From a virus, in the IMG/VR virus record IMGVR_UViG_3300036835_000191, positions 1 through 21,703 of that record: a stretch of 21,703 nt of DNA; one strand, given 5' to 3'. Made by a program: the position numbers and the translations under genes. The notes beneath the pieces were generated by a model. The model was not told the origin of the DNA, did no database searches, and saw nothing but the letters and a program-made list of their open reading frames with translations. Shown here one piece after another: positions 5,064 to 21,703 of this stretch (within the stretch, counting starts at the first letter, position 1; the number at the start of each line of letters is the position of its first letter).

Positions 5064-5814
5064 CATTCCCAGCCCGAACTACTCGAGCCGGGGCGGCCAG
5101 ACCGTCCGCCTGGTCGTCGTGCACACCGCCGAGGGGGCTACCACCTACCAGTCGCTCGGCTCGTATTTCGCCAACCCGGCGTCGCAGGTGTCGTCGCACA
5201 CCGGGATCGACGACACCCCCGGCGTCGTCGGCGAATACGTCCCCCGATCGGGTAAGGCGTGGACCCAGGCGAACGCCAACCCCTACTCGATCGCCACCGA
5301 GCTGTGCGCGTTCGCCGCCTGGCAAACTGCCGACTGGAACAGGCACCCGCAGATGCTCGCCAACTGCGCCGCCTGGATCGCCGAAGAATGCGCCGCCTTC
5401 GGGATACCGAACGTCAAACTGTCCGCCACCCAAGCCCAGGACGGCCGCACCCGCGGCGTCTGCGGCCACGTCGACCTCGGCGCCGCGGGCGGCGGCCACT
5501 GGGACCCCGGCCCCGCGTTCCCGTGGGCGAAAGTCATCGGCGGCGCCCAACCCACGCCCTCACCAGAACCCGAACCGGAGGACGACGACATGCCCGCTAT
5601 CCGCAACGTGCCCACCAAAAACAAAGGGCAGGTCGCCCAGGTGGTCACCGACGGGATGACGTTCCGGTGGCTGACGTCGTCATCGGACTACCAACTGAAC
5701 GTCGACCAGGGCGCGAAGCCGATCGCCGGCACCCTGCCGAACTGGGTGCCGTGCGGCGCCCCGGTGAACAAGCAGACCGCCGACCTGTTCGACATCGCCT
5801 GGCCGCCCAGCTAG
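5044..5814 (+). CDS. Endolysin, N-acetylmuramoyl-L-alanine amidase (PGRP/Amidase_2 fold)
   Basis: 256 residues. It cuts the amide bond between muramic acid and the stem peptide to release phage. The zinc ligands of the family are visible: His27 (LVVVHTAEG), His142 (VCGHVDLG) and Asp154 (HWDPGP). Glu86 lies in the usual TELCAF strand. The catalytic domain spans about residues 5-165. An acidic Pro/Glu/Asp linker (about 170-182) leads to a C-terminal domain of ~74 residues, likely cell-wall binding. There is no signal peptide, so it needs a holin. A GGAGG at 5577-5581 sits 8 bases before an in-frame ATG at 5590, exactly at the linker, so a second shorter product is likely. The start overlaps the small acidic gene upstream. 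Confidence 0.92.
   Translation: MALTRVSIPSPNYSSRGGQTVRLVVVHTAEGATTYQSLGSYFANPASQVSSHTGIDDTPGVVGEYVPRSGKAWTQANANPYSIATELCAFAAWQTADWNRHPQMLANCAAWIAEECAAFGIPNVKLSATQAQDGRTRGVCGHVDLGAAGGGHWDPGPAFPWAKVIGGAQPTPSPEPEPEDDDMPAIRNVPTKNKGQVAQVVTDGMTFRWLTSSSDYQLNVDQGAKPIAGTLPNWVPCGAPVNKQTADLFDIAWPPS
5577..5592 (+). promoter_or_regulatory. Internal ribosome binding site and start inside the endolysin
   Basis: GGAGG at 5577-5581, 8-base spacer, then ATG at 5590-5592 in the endolysin frame. Initiation here would give a 74-residue protein consisting only of the C-terminal domain. Several endolysins of Gram-positive phages make such a free binding domain that assembles with the full enzyme. Here it is inferred from spacing and domain position. 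Confidence 0.6.
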
Positions 5815-6051: not shown

Positions 6052-6531
6052 CTACCCGGCGGCTTGTACTCCGAGCGCGGCCCGGACCCGATCGAGATCG
6101 GCCCGGGCCAGATAGCGGTCGGTGGTCGCCACGTTCTTATGACCTAGGAGTTGCTGGACCGCCTGCAGGTCCTTGGTCCGGCGGTACGCCTCGGTCGCGG
6201 CCCGATGCCTGAGCGCGTGCGCGCTCTTGCCGTCTCGGGCTTCGGATTTCAATCCGGCCTGTCTCATCCATTGCGACACCAGCTGAGACAGGCGGGCCGC
6301 GCCGATCCCGAAGATCGGTCCCCGGTCGCGGTCTCGCACGTGCGGGGCTAGCGCGGCGGCTACGTCGTCGGGTACGGGAACGGTACGGCGCCGCCCGCCT
6401 TTTCCCCAGACATATATCAGCCGCTCGGCACGATCCCAGTCGGCGACCTCTAAACGGGCCACCTCGACGCACCGCAACCCCATGCGTTCCATCACCGCCA
6501 CGATCGCCACCGCCCGCGGATCGGGGAGCAC
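6052..6531 (-). CDS. Tyrosine recombinase, catalytic domain only
   Basis: 159 residues from GTG 6531. All catalytic residues of the family are present: Arg20 (GLRCVEVARL), Lys44 (GKGGRRR), His105 and Arg108 (HALRH), His131 (LLGHKN) and the nucleophile Tyr140 (TTDRY). The usual N-terminal arm-binding and core-binding domains are missing. The frame is open only 22 codons further upstream to a TAG and has no ATG, GTG or TTG there. The protein could be a compact integrase, a Xer-like resolvase of a plasmid-form phage, or a 5'-truncated integrase. It is transcribed leftward, convergent with the lysis genes, and its start faces the DnaA-box region and the excisionase-like gene, a typical int/xis arrangement. 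Confidence 0.85.
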   Translation of the reverse strand: MLPDPRAVAIVAVMERMGLRCVEVARLEVADWDRAERLIYVWGKGGRRRTVPVPDDVAAALAPHVRDRDRGPIFGIGAARLSQLVSQWMRQAGLKSEARDGKSAHALRHRAATEAYRRTKDLQAVQQLLGHKNVATTDRYLARADLDRVRAALGVQAAG

Positions 6532-6678
6532 CAGGCGCAGGCGAGCAAATTCGGCGCGGTATCCACGTGACCGCGGCCATGCTCCACACTATGCCACATT
6601 ATCCACAGTGTCCACAAGGTCCTGTGGATAACTAGGCTAGTGGCGGAAAAGTTTGGAATAGTCTAGAGTCTGCTGGTT
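6532..6678. promoter_or_regulatory. Divergent intergenic control region between recombinase and HTH gene
   Basis: About 147 bases, clearly richer in A+T than its neighbours. It carries the DnaA boxes listed separately. Close to the rightward start there is a 5-base direct repeat AGTCT-AG-AGTCT (6660-6671), possibly an operator for the HTH protein encoded just downstream. Early promoters for both directions probably lie here. TAGAGT at 6664-6669 could be a rightward -10 element, but I see no convincing -35. Confidence 0.5.
6599..6631. other. Inverted pair of perfect DnaA boxes (replication origin candidate)
   Basis: TTATCCACA at 6599-6607 and its exact reverse complement at 6623-6631 are both perfect matches to the consensus DnaA box. 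Between them GTGTCCACA (6608-6616) differs by one base from the actinobacterial form TTGTCCACA. With the flanking G they form 10-base perfect arms around a 13-base spacer. The surrounding sequence is locally AT-richer. Confidence 0.65.
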
Positions 6679-8884: not shown

Positions 8885-9673
8885 ATGGAACGACAACGAA
8901 AACTGGCACAACATCCGCTGTCAGCCTTGTTCCCACCCATGCCCGACGACGAGTACCAGGCGTTGGTGGAGGACATCCGACAGCACGGCGTGCTCGAACC
9001 GGTCACCGTGTACGAAGGCAAAGTGATGGACGGCTGGCACCGCTACCGGGCCGCCACCGAAGCCGGGGTGCAATGCCCGACCCGGGAATGGGCTAACCCG
9101 GACGGTCCTGAATCGGCCTTCGCGTACGTGTGGTCAAAGAACACACTGCGCCGTCACCTCACATCTGGTCAGCGGATCGCTGTTACCGCGAAGGGATATC
9201 CCGATCTCTGGGAGAAAGTAAACACCGCGAATCCAGGTCCAGCTAATCCAGGAGATAAGGAGGATATACTCCTTATCTCGCCAGCCGAGAAGTTGGCTTC
9301 TATTGCTGGGGTCCATCCGAGAAGCGTTCAAGATGCTAAAAGGATTGAACGGGATCGGCCTGATCTTTGGGAGCAGGTCGAAGGTGGCAGAAAGGCCCTC
9401 GGCGACGCTATTAACACCCGTCTATACGAGCAGGTTCTACGGGAGCAGACCGTCCAGCAGGCCCGCCGACAGGCCCAAGACGTCGACTGGCAGAACGACT
9501 ACGTCAAGGACCGGCTGACTGAGATCAACCGGCTGCAACAAATCAAACTGAATATCCATATCGGGCTGGAGGAGAAGAAGTTCGCTCCCGAAGCCAAGCC
9601 GTTCATTGTGCGGCGCATCAACCGGGCCATCGTGTGGCTCACCGAAGCAAAAAACGAACTGGAGGAATCATGA
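8885..9673 (+). CDS. ParB-like (ParB/Srx nuclease-fold) protein with HTH
   Basis: 262 residues from ATG 8885, chosen for AGGAG at 8876-8880; the longer open frame upstream overlaps the leftward gene. Residues ~8-60 form the ParB N-terminal domain (PLSALFPPMP, IRQHGVLEPVTV, and the DGWHRYRAATEAG box that binds or hydrolyses nucleotide). Residues 132-154 are a helix-turn-helix (AEKLASIAGVHPRSVQDAKR). The C-terminal ~80 residues are helical. Possible roles are DNA partition or centromere binding, or transcription control as in KorB-like proteins. No ParA is present. The stretch around 9180-9350 is AT-richer than the rest and holds a perfect hairpin. The stop overlaps the next ATG. Confidence 0.82.
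   Translation: MERQRKLAQHPLSALFPPMPDDEYQALVEDIRQHGVLEPVTVYEGKVMDGWHRYRAATEAGVQCPTREWANPDGPESAFAYVWSKNTLRRHLTSGQRIAVTAKGYPDLWEKVNTANPGPANPGDKEDILLISPAEKLASIAGVHPRSVQDAKRIERDRPDLWEQVEGGRKALGDAINTRLYEQVLREQTVQQARRQAQDVDWQNDYVKDRLTEINRLQQIKLNIHIGLEEKKFAPEAKPFIVRRINRAIVWLTEAKNELEES
9252..9279. repeat. Perfect 11-bp inverted repeat inside the ParB-like gene
   Basis: GAGATAAGGAG (9252-9262), loop GATATA, CTCCTTATCTC (9269-9279). It lies in the hinge between the ParB domain and the HTH, in an AT-rich patch unlike the surrounding GC-rich DNA. It could be a protein binding site (for instance a parS-like site) or an mRNA hairpin. Confidence 0.7.
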
Positions 9674-11208: not shown

Positions 11209-11937
11209 GTGAGCGGACGCGCGTTACATCGGGTCATCATGGCCGGGCCGGACGATCCCCGGCTCTACCGGGTGTTGACGGTGGTGGCTGATCGCATATT
11301 CGACGCCGATGGCGTGGCCCGGATCACCTCGGCGACGGTGGCCGAGCGAGCGCGTCTCAGTCGGTGGTACGCGCGGCAGCTGCTGGCCTGCGCGGTCGCG
11401 GACGGCTGGCTGGACATCGCGACACCAGGGTCGAGACGGCGCGCGACGTCCTACCGCCTCGGCCCGCTATTGGCGGACGCGAGCGCTGATACCGCCAATA
11501 ACCCGGACGGCGAGTTATCCACAGATGGCGCGAGCCCCGTACAAAACCGCCATCTGATGGCGCGCGGCCCGCACGAATCCGCCACCCACGTCTTTAACGG
11601 TATAAACAGCGCGGTGTGCGCGGCGTGCCAAGACATCGGCTGGGTATTCGTGGACAAGAACACAGTCGCCCGCTGCGTCTGTGTGAACAACCGCCTGCGG
11701 GGTAAAATCGCTGGTAGGAGCCTTGGACCATGCGCCGAAACCCCCGACGCCGCGCCTACTACTGCCGACCCGCGATCGATCCCGAGACGCGGCGACCCCA
11801 ACCCACCCGGTACATCGGCAACGACGCCAACGAACGAGCCCGCTGGTTCGCCCAGTTCCGCGCCCAGATCGGCGAGACACGCCAAGACGACGATCACCTG
11901 GGACCGCCCTCAGGCCAGATCGCCCTCGGCGGGATGA
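11209..11937 (+). CDS. Winged-helix protein with zinc motif, replication initiator candidate
   Basis: Up to 242 residues from GTG 11209; ATG 11239 is an alternative start. Residues ~18-85 form a winged helix (LYRVLTVVADRIF ... ITSATVAERARLSRWYARQL ... DGWLDI ... RRRATSYRL), the usual N-terminal domain of phage replication initiators. A variable linker (~86-130) is encoded by DNA with iteron-like repeats and a DnaA box. Residues 137-158 hold CX2C-X15-CXC around CAACQDIGWVFV, resembling zinc segments of phage replication or helicase-loader proteins. Beyond ~170 the sequence is low in complexity and is overlapped by another frame from 11730, so the true end may be an uninformative tail. Initiator function is inferred. 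Confidence 0.68.
   Translation: MSGRALHRVIMAGPDDPRLYRVLTVVADRIFDADGVARITSATVAERARLSRWYARQLLACAVADGWLDIATPGSRRRATSYRLGPLLADASADTANNPDGELSTDGASPVQNRHLMARGPHESATHVFNGINSAVCAACQDIGWVFVDKNTVARCVCVNNRLRGKIAGRSLGPCAETPDAAPTTADPRSIPRRGDPNPPGTSATTPTNEPAGSPSSAPRSARHAKTTITWDRPQARSPSAG
11469..11562. repeat. Iteron-like TGGCG repeats with inverted arms inside the winged-helix gene
   Basis: TGGCG in both orientations occurs at 11471, 11493 (inverted), 11526, 11548 (inverted) and 11558. Spacings are 22, 33, 22 and 10 bases, about whole helical turns. Two perfect 9-base inverted pairs result: TATTGGCGG (11468-11476) with 11492-11500, and CAGATGGCG (11522-11530) with 11548-11556. GATGGCGCG is also directly repeated at 11524 and 11556. 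Confidence 0.6.
11515..11523 (+). other. Perfect DnaA box inside the winged-helix gene
   Basis: TTATCCACA, identical to the two boxes at 6599 and 6623, lies in the middle of the iteron-like repeats. An AT-rich patch (CTTTAACGGTATAAACAG, near 11590-11610) follows and could serve for strand opening. Confidence 0.6.
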
Positions 11938-11957: not shown

Positions 11958-12311
11958 GTGGCCCTGACCGCGGCCCAGCGCAACGCCCTGCCCCGATCGG
12001 CGTTCGTGTACAACCGGGGACCGCGCTCGAGCTGGCGGTATCCGACGCCGACCCGGGCGCAGACCGCCGCCGCCAACCGGCGGCTGCCGGCCAGCCAGCG
12101 GATCAGCGAGACTCGCCGGGCCCGCACCCATCGGGCCGCCCTGTCCTACTCAGCCCGCCGGGACACCATGGGGTCACACCGCACTGTCCGCGCCCACGTC
12201 TCCCACCGACACCAGGGTGCGGTCACGTCGGTCGCCCGTGACCGGCGACCAGCCGCCCGACCCCGTTCATCCACCGTCCGGGGTCGGGCGGCGTCCACCC
12301 GCCGGCGGTGA
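11958..12311 (+). CDS. Small Arg-rich protein with LTAAQRNALP motif
   Basis: 117 residues from GTG 11958. It opens with ALTAAQRNALPRSAFVYNRG and then RYPTPTRAQTAAANRRLP. The LTA-x-R-x-x-LP-x-S-x-F pattern is shared with a recurring segment in many actinophage and actinobacterial proteins, there often followed by YP and an Ala/Arg-rich helix as here. The last ~50 residues are mostly Arg, Ser, Ala and His and may be disordered or bind nucleic acid. The stop overlaps the HNH start by GTGA. Function unknown. Confidence 0.6.
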   Translation: MALTAAQRNALPRSAFVYNRGPRSSWRYPTPTRAQTAAANRRLPASQRISETRRARTHRAALSYSARRDTMGSHRTVRAHVSHRHQGAVTSVARDRRPAARPRSSTVRGRAASTRRR

Positions 12312-15240: not shown

Positions 15241-15257
15241 GTAAACGTTCTACGCCC

Positions 15258-15325
15258 AACCGACGCCCCTAGGGAGTCGGTTGGAGCGCTCCAACCGACG
15301 CCCAACCGACGCCCAACCGACGCCC
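15258..15325. repeat. 11-bp direct repeats with a perfect 24-bp palindrome
   Basis: AACCGACGCCC occurs at 15258, 15293, 15304 and 15315, the last three in tandem with 11-base period. An inverted copy of its core (GTCGGTTGG, 15276-15284) creates a perfect 24-bp palindrome at 15276-15299 and an alternative 9-bp stem with 15256-15264. It begins 17 bases after the terminase stop. It could terminate transcription, bind an initiator, or both. Confidence 0.75.
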
Positions 15326-15778
15326 GGTGAGCGTGAGAAACGTCGCGCGTTAAGGGATAGGGATAGGGATAGGGAAAAACAACCCCCCTTAATCCCCCCG
15401 CGCGCGCCCGAACGGGTCCAAGTCGAGCTCCTGCCAGCGCCGGCGCCTAACGGCGCCAAGCCAGTCAAGGCGACGGTGGAGGCTTCCGGCTTCGGAGACT
15501 TCTGGGTCGCCTACCCGCGCAAGGTAGCTCGAGCCCGGGCCGAGGCCGCCTACCGCCAGGCTGTCCGCCGCGACGGCACCGACCTGATCGCGGGCGGTCT
15601 GGCCGTCTGGTGCGCCTTCTGGTCCAGCGAGCGCACCGAAGAGAAGTTCATCCCGCACCCGACCACGTTCCTGCACCAGGCCCGCTATCTGGACGGGCCT
15701 CCGGCGGCCCGGTCGCCCGAGCCGAAAGGCTTCGCGGGGCTGCGCGCCTACATGGACCACCAAGGCGACCACTCGTGA
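15281..15778 (+). CDS. Replication-protein C-terminal domain (FWxxYPRK type), displaced
   Basis: Up to 165 residues from TTG 15281; GTG near 15475 is another possible start. The first ~65 residues are low in complexity and partly encoded by DNA repeats. Residues ~69-140 match the C-terminal domain of many phage replication and DnaD-like proteins: FGDFWVAYPRKVARARAEAA, then DLIAGGLAVW, then the FIPHPTTFLHQARYLDG end. In most phages this domain follows a winged helix in one protein, and the gene lies in the early region. Here it stands alone between terminase and portal, while a winged-helix protein lies at 11209. The assignment comes from motif recognition; activity is unknown. Confidence 0.6.
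   Translation: MERSNRRPTDAQPTPGEREKRRALRDRDRDREKQPPLIPPRAPERVQVELLPAPAPNGAKPVKATVEASGFGDFWVAYPRKVARARAEAAYRQAVRRDGTDLIAGGLAVWCAFWSSERTEEKFIPHPTTFLHQARYLDGPPAARSPEPKGFAGLRAYMDHQGDHS
15353..15376 (+). repeat. AGGGAT hexamer tandem repeat
   Basis: Three copies of AGGGAT and a fourth AGGGAA follow each other exactly (15353-15376). In the putative replication gene they encode Arg-Asp three times, then Arg-Glu. They lie about 30 bases after the 11-bp repeats. Possibly a microsatellite-like expansion or part of an origin. Confidence 0.85.
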
Positions 15779-21473: not shown

Positions 21474-21703
21474 GTGGCGGCCGAACTCCAATTCCAGCTG
21501 GTCGGCAACGCCACCTCCGCCGTCAACGCGTTCAAACAGACCTCCGACGCCTCCAAGTCCGCCTCCGGCGCGGCGGACAAAACCGGGGTCTCTTTCGCCA
21601 AGGTCGCCGAGGCGATCGGCTCCGCCTACGTCACCAAAAAAGTCATCGACTTCGGCAAAGCCACCGTCGACGCCGCCTCCGAAGCCCACGTCGCCAACGC
21701 CCG
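21474..21703 (+). CDS. Tail tape measure protein, N-terminal part (continues at base 3)
   Basis: GTG at 21474 opens MAAELQFQLVGNATSAVNAF, a typical tape measure N-terminus, and reads without interruption into the repeated end segment and then into the frame at base 3. The start lies 6 bases after the stop of the T-frame at 21467. The ribosome binding site is weak, which fits translational coupling to the chaperone genes just upstream. The split is only an artefact of where the circle was cut. Confidence 0.92.
   Translation, partial: MAAELQFQLVGNATSAVNAFKQTSDASKSASGAADKTGVSFAKVAEAIGSAYVTKKVIDFGKATVDAASEAHVANA
21577..21703. repeat. Terminal direct repeat, right copy (circular join)
   Basis: Exact second copy of bases 1-127. 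Joining the two copies gives a circle of 21,576 bp and restores one uninterrupted tape measure gene. Confidence 0.97.

Follow-up and report, generated by a model that had tools for sequence, protein, structure and literature searches.

A probable phage replication origin in the linker-coding part of an O-like initiator gene

The initiator gene and its embedded dyads

The window, a 21,703-nucleotide stretch of viral DNA (IMG/VR record IMGVR_UViG_3300036835_000191), begins and ends with the same 127 bases (1-127 and 21577-21703), which identifies it as a circular contig of some 21.6 kb. The gene content is siphovirus-like, with genes for tape measure, tail, endolysin, a short integrase, RecT, HNH, terminase, portal, protease and capsid proteins. 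The integrase open reading frame (6052-6531) encodes only 159 residues, essentially the catalytic domain, and the divergent integrase/excisionase-like intergenic region carries an inverted pair of perfect DnaA boxes (6599-6631; TTATCCACA-N15-TGTGGATAA) with a third GTGGATA nearby at 6560. A partition-site reading was set aside, the candidate gene at 9020 having no ParB match in Pfam. The gene of central interest here and the features within it are as follows.

11209-11937, plus strand: O-like replication initiator gene with a GTG start, encoding 242 residues (VSGR...), assigned from hhalign and weak PHROG matches
11209-11463, plus strand: part coding for the winged-helix DNA-binding domain, delimited by profile alignment to O-like initiators
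11471-11497, no strand assigned: dyad A, TGGCG-N17-CGCCA, with 9-bp arms at 11468-11476 and 11492-11500
11515-11523, plus strand: perfect DnaA box, TTATCCACA, recurring in the initiator regions of five of ten relatives
11526-11552, no strand assigned: dyad B, TGGCG-N17-CGCCA, with arms at 11522-11530 and 11548-11556
11558-11584, no strand assigned: dyad C, TGGCG-N17-CGCCA, matching dyad B at 83% identity across 29 nt
11586-11609, no strand assigned: AT-rich candidate unwinding element, the least stable stretch of the gene
11617-11682, plus strand: CxxC...CxC zinc-like motif of the initiator (codons TGC 11617, TGC 11626, TGC 11674 and TGT 11680)

Judged from its sequence, the open reading frame at 11209-11937 is a diverged lambda-O-like winged-helix initiator, in agreement with the first-pass annotation, which had called it a putative initiator. 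A profile of 18 O-like initiators, built with the window protein left out, aligned to residues 1-85 in hhalign with 91.7% probability (E 7.6e-7), and among all open reading frames of the window this was the sole significant match to the O-like profile (E 3e-5). PHROG comparisons gave weak matches to replication initiation families (E 0.0055 and 0.008), Pfam gave none, and the N-terminus, VSGRAL, resembles the VSGYAMEWA and VSGRAMEWA of relatives. No close homologue of the protein was found among IMG/VR viral contigs, INPHARED phages, 29 relatives identified through the terminase or GTDB genome contigs, so that the interpretation of the window's own dyads draws on statistics and analogy. No helicase loader was recognized next to the initiator, the downstream genes g11958 and HNH not being loaders by inspection. 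The first of these (11958-12308) encodes a conserved small basic protein that is present in approximately 80 viral contigs and lies on the opposite strand in two of the terminase relatives (L084 and L093); a search for prophages in genome contigs by way of this neighbor found none.

The linker-coding part between the winged helix and the zinc-like motif, correctly placed in the first-pass annotation, is occupied by TGGCG half-sites in alternating orientation. The annotation had listed five, spaced 22, 33, 22 and 10 bases; these motifs and spacings are present, but the full count is six, at 11471(+), 11493(-), 11526(+), 11548(-), 11558(+) and 11580(-), with a final start-to-start spacing of 22. 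All of these spacings approach whole helical turns, which would place bound proteins on one face of the DNA. The half-sites combine into three TGGCG-N17-CGCCA dyads, and this pattern occurs exactly three times in the genome, each time inside the initiator gene. In dyads A and B the 9-bp arms match perfectly (TATTGGCGG/CCGCCAATA and CAGATGGCG/CGCCATCTG, respectively). The perfect DnaA box that the annotation had noted among the motifs is indeed found, at 11515, as is the AT-rich patch after them: it begins at 11586, two bases past the last dyad, and as a 24-mer falls within the least stable 0.4% of the genome. Three dyads, a DnaA box and an adjoining unstable patch thus fit within a single 142-bp stretch. 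As single strands the dyads fold with energies of -7.8 to -13.9 kcal/mol; a reading as RNA hairpins or a terminator was set aside since a terminator would cut the initiator gene itself.

Dyads, DnaA box and base composition against chance

Because TGGCG is common throughout the window (136 observed versus 93 expected), five copies within 150 bases are not striking by themselves. The half-sites do, however, fall in different codon frames and are therefore neither a protein repeat nor imposed by the protein. We held the protein fixed and resampled codons from the phage's own usage. Under this null model at least three TGGCG-N17-CGCCA dyads arose in 67 of 100,000 trials, at least three dyads of any 5-mer at any one spacer in 3 of 5,000, and a perfect DnaA box within the initiator gene in 47 of 20,000. 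The notion that the dyads are a by-product of codon bias in a GC-rich gene draws on the general excess of TGGCG and on whole-genome Markov simulations, 3 of 60 of which produced a three-dyad cluster somewhere, a weaker result than the within-gene test. We regard this notion as extremely improbable, given the rarity of the dyads within the gene, the separate rarity of the DnaA box and the recurrence of the architecture in relatives. With the whole-genome search being less exceptional, the case rests on the combination of features together with the relatives.

The generic 7-mer count under codon resampling is insensitive to the window's short half-sites, and the dyad array lies outside the top clusters of a whole-genome repeat ranking because its exact repeats span only 5-9 bp. 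A scan of viral contigs for two TGGCG dyads returned 42 matches, a number in which chance matches are expected for so short a motif. The skew minimum that the first-pass annotation had proposed as a check does not point to the dyads, as the extremes of detrended GC skew lie at 5622 and 13110, away from the site.

Syntenic initiators, their arrays and a second array in the window

A terminase search yielded 29 viral contigs at 48-81% identity, of which the larger were read whole. Many of the contigs (L046-L064) have their ends upstream of the gene for the terminase large subunit, at a distance of a few hundred bases, which suggests defined genome ends there. Neither the window's initiator nor its dyad array is recognizable in any of the 29, the exact repeat occurring only as scattered single copies. 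The first-pass annotation had named absence of the repeats from close relatives as evidence against an origin, and this first apparent refutation was lifted when other repeats emerged at the same place. In ten of the terminase relatives an O-like initiator gene lies upstream of the HNH and terminase genes, the syntenic products matching replication initiation families strongly (best values phrog_391, E 4e-12; phrog_270, E 2e-14; phrog_1032, E 7e-16), and in nine of these ten a genome-specific iteron array is clear, situated in the linker or just past the initiator gene. The comparison of homologous genes that the annotation had called for favors its reading, as the array is kept at the same place while its repeat differs by lineage, with the qualification that no close relative of the window's initiator was found for alignment.

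Two whole-genome searches converge on this location. A search for dyad clusters (at least three copies of one 5-mer dyad with the same spacing inside 200 bp) points to the initiator gene in seven of the ten relatives, two of which have one further cluster elsewhere, and the top-scoring 7-mer repeat cluster of the genome lies in or beside the syntenic initiator in eight of ten (GGGCGCA, CCCCGGA, CCGCGCG, ATAGGGG, GCGCGAC, CCGCGAG and GTGACAC). The ninth relative, L086, has three copies of GTCCCAGGGAC at its initiator and nowhere else in the genome; in the tenth, L080, imperfect GTGGAC/GTCCAC repeats were recognized by eye. The array repeat is uniform within a genome and different between lineages (GGGGCGCA, CGGAC, CCGCGCG, AGGGGG, CGCGCGAC, GCGCGAC, CCGCGAG and GTGTCAC), and the N17 spacer of the window is longer than that of most relatives' dyads. 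In two relatives (L075 and L078) the array starts at the initiator stop codon rather than inside the gene; immediately past the iterons, the same two genomes share a conserved inverted repeat that is rich in AT (AAGAGAGCT...AGCTCTCTCTT).

The DnaA box and AT-rich patch recur alongside these arrays. Across eleven genomes there are eight perfect TTATCCACA boxes, six of which fall in the initiator regions, which account for 4.3% of the total length (P 1.6e-7). The remaining two are the inverted boxes noted above in the window's integrase/excisionase intergenic region. In five relatives (L077, L079, L084, L086 and L093) the box at the initiator region is the only perfect one in the genome, in L082 the region has a box with one mismatch only, and in the remaining four of ten it lacks any box within one mismatch. 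The AT peak of the gene region starts between -3 and +10 bp from the array end in nine of eleven genomes, a count that is descriptive because array ends were set by hand. These observations also bear on whether the dyads are merely operators through which the winged-helix protein represses its own gene, with replication beginning elsewhere. Winged-helix proteins often autoregulate through inverted repeats, and initiators often do both. We nonetheless judge a purely regulatory role very improbable: the array lies approximately 260 bp downstream of the start codon and not at a promoter, and the AT-rich patch directly after the array together with the frequent neighboring DnaA box fits an origin better.

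The relationship between repeat and protein can be followed in two viruses, L084 and L112, whose initiators are 72% identical. The former carries five dyads of the form CTCGCGG-CCACA-CCGCGAG, some of them imperfect, and the latter five of the form TGCGCGG-CCACA-CCGCGCA, such that two left-arm positions and their right-arm partners have changed in nearly all copies. As the reading frame is not the same for all dyad copies (RPHRE, RGHTA), selection on the encoded protein is no explanation for a symmetric change of both arms, whereas a protein that binds the dyad would explain it. Across related viruses the layout and its place stay the same and the repeat differs each time, so that origin and initiator appear to change in step.

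The plan extends to more distant phages. Among cultured phages, gp22 of Curtobacterium phage Root bears four dyads of 21 bp each (GGGTGACGCCCACGTCACCC) with an AT-rich patch after them, and distinct arrays occur in O-like genes of Rhodococcus phage Tonitrus (gp63) and Pseudomonas phage U2; all three arrays sit in helix-turn-helix or initiation genes. Root resembles the window in this order of dyads and AT-rich patch within a helix-turn-helix gene, there near the right end of a small genome, and differs in its unrelated repeat sequence and in that no DnaA box was seen in it. Six viral contigs reached through g11958 (L123, L143, L146, L148, L192 and L140) show repeats in or after the linker by eye, one of them (L123) with a perfect DnaA box just past the array.

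The window also contains a second array, located beyond the initiator.

15256-15322, no strand assigned: second iteron-like array of CAACCGACGCC repeats, lying where gene 15281-15775 starts, together with a perfect palindrome of 24 bp (15276-15299)
15281-15775, plus strand: gene whose product is similar to the C-terminal portion of phage replication initiators, possibly a partner subunit (phrog_270, primosomal, E 3e-15, profile positions 168-256 of 383)

The array's five copies of CAACCGA form the strongest exact-repeat cluster of the window (score 8.4), and this strength, the palindrome and the initiator-like match of the adjoining gene would favor it as the true origin, leaving the array at 11.5 kb minor or vestigial. 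Such an assignment seems very improbable, however, as the second array has no DnaA box, the gene at 15281-15775 has no recognized DNA-binding domain, the terL-portal interval of the relatives showed no comparable array, and the syntenic, conserved site is the one at 11.5 kb. The TGGCG-N17-CGCCA dyad is absent from the second array, which thus does not share the repeat of the initiator as an SPP1-like two-origin system would. Repeats found between terL and portal in L079 and L080 were rejected as iterons because they encode collagen-like GPP runs; in both genomes genes with such repeats are inserted in the head gene cluster.

A proposed origin and its relation to known systems

We consider it highly likely that 11468-11610 is a phage replication origin placed within its own initiator gene, in the segment that codes for the linker, in the manner of lambda, and equipped with a site for host DnaA. 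The lambda-like origin that the first-pass annotation had proposed inside the initiator gene is supported by the syntenic arrays, DnaA boxes and AT-rich patches of relatives. The sequences themselves show the layout of the site, its statistical significance inside the gene and the architecture that relatives conserve. From the presence of the same parts in the same order as in lambda, with a DnaA box added within the array, we infer the same mechanism with host DnaA helping. By analogy with this layout, the winged-helix domain would bind the three dyads, probably as dimers, while host DnaA would occupy the box that separates dyad A from dyad B; once assembled, the complex may bend the DNA and open the AT-rich patch at 11586-11609, where the helicase would be loaded.

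An origin within its own initiator gene is already known as a kind, and what these sequences make clear is the turnover of its repeats between lineages. A bolder extension, which we offer as speculative and rather unlikely in full, is that of an origin cassette whose plan is fixed (winged helix, DnaA box, dyads and AT-rich patch) and whose iterons are rewritten along with the winged helix so that each lineage's origin is private. On this reading the initiator of the window would in addition be divided between a DNA-binding protein (11209) and a primosomal one (15281), with one array each and two origins. To our knowledge, the lytic replication origins of actinobacterial-type phages are mostly unmapped. 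The layout described here provides a search rule for such origins (the linker of an O-like gene, a dyad array, then an AT-rich patch), a natural series of initiator and binding-site pairs from which the co-evolution of winged helix and target might be read, and a source of candidate origins for small shuttle plasmids.

In iteron plasmid origins, Rep-binding repeats, a DnaA box and an unwinding element lie side by side. The window differs from these in having inverted dyads in place of direct iterons and in carrying its array inside the initiator coding sequence; iteron plasmid origins are among the subjects of a review (PMC4980987). In eight temperate mycobacteriophages the regions searched were without repeats, and a possible origin upstream of or within repA was suggested (PMC7157519). 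A further parallel is oriL of the Bacillus phage SPP1, which lies within gene 38 for the origin-binding protein and combines repeats with an AT-rich unwinding element, as the window does, and the second SPP1 origin, oriR, interrupts the late gene region as does the window's second array (PMC6316719). SPP1 gp38 binds both origins, however, whereas the two arrays of the window are without a clear common motif, and the SPP1 origins use direct repeats, unlike the dyads.

In lambda, the O protein recognizes four inverted-repeat iterons midway through gene O, its dimers on adjacent iterons come together and wrap the DNA, and opening takes place in the AT-rich tract next to them (PMC7466680, PMC3985674). 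The window shares with lambda the position of the origin in mid-initiator gene and a series of imperfect inverted-repeat iterons, four of 19 bp in the case of lambda, ahead of an AT-rich tract (PMC7466680, PMC3985674). It differs in its long-spaced 27-bp dyads, in the C-terminal zinc-like motif of its initiator and in that no P-like gene was recognized adjoining it. Lambda has DnaA-box-like sites downstream of pO (PMC3985674), whereas in the window a perfect DnaA box lies inside the array itself.
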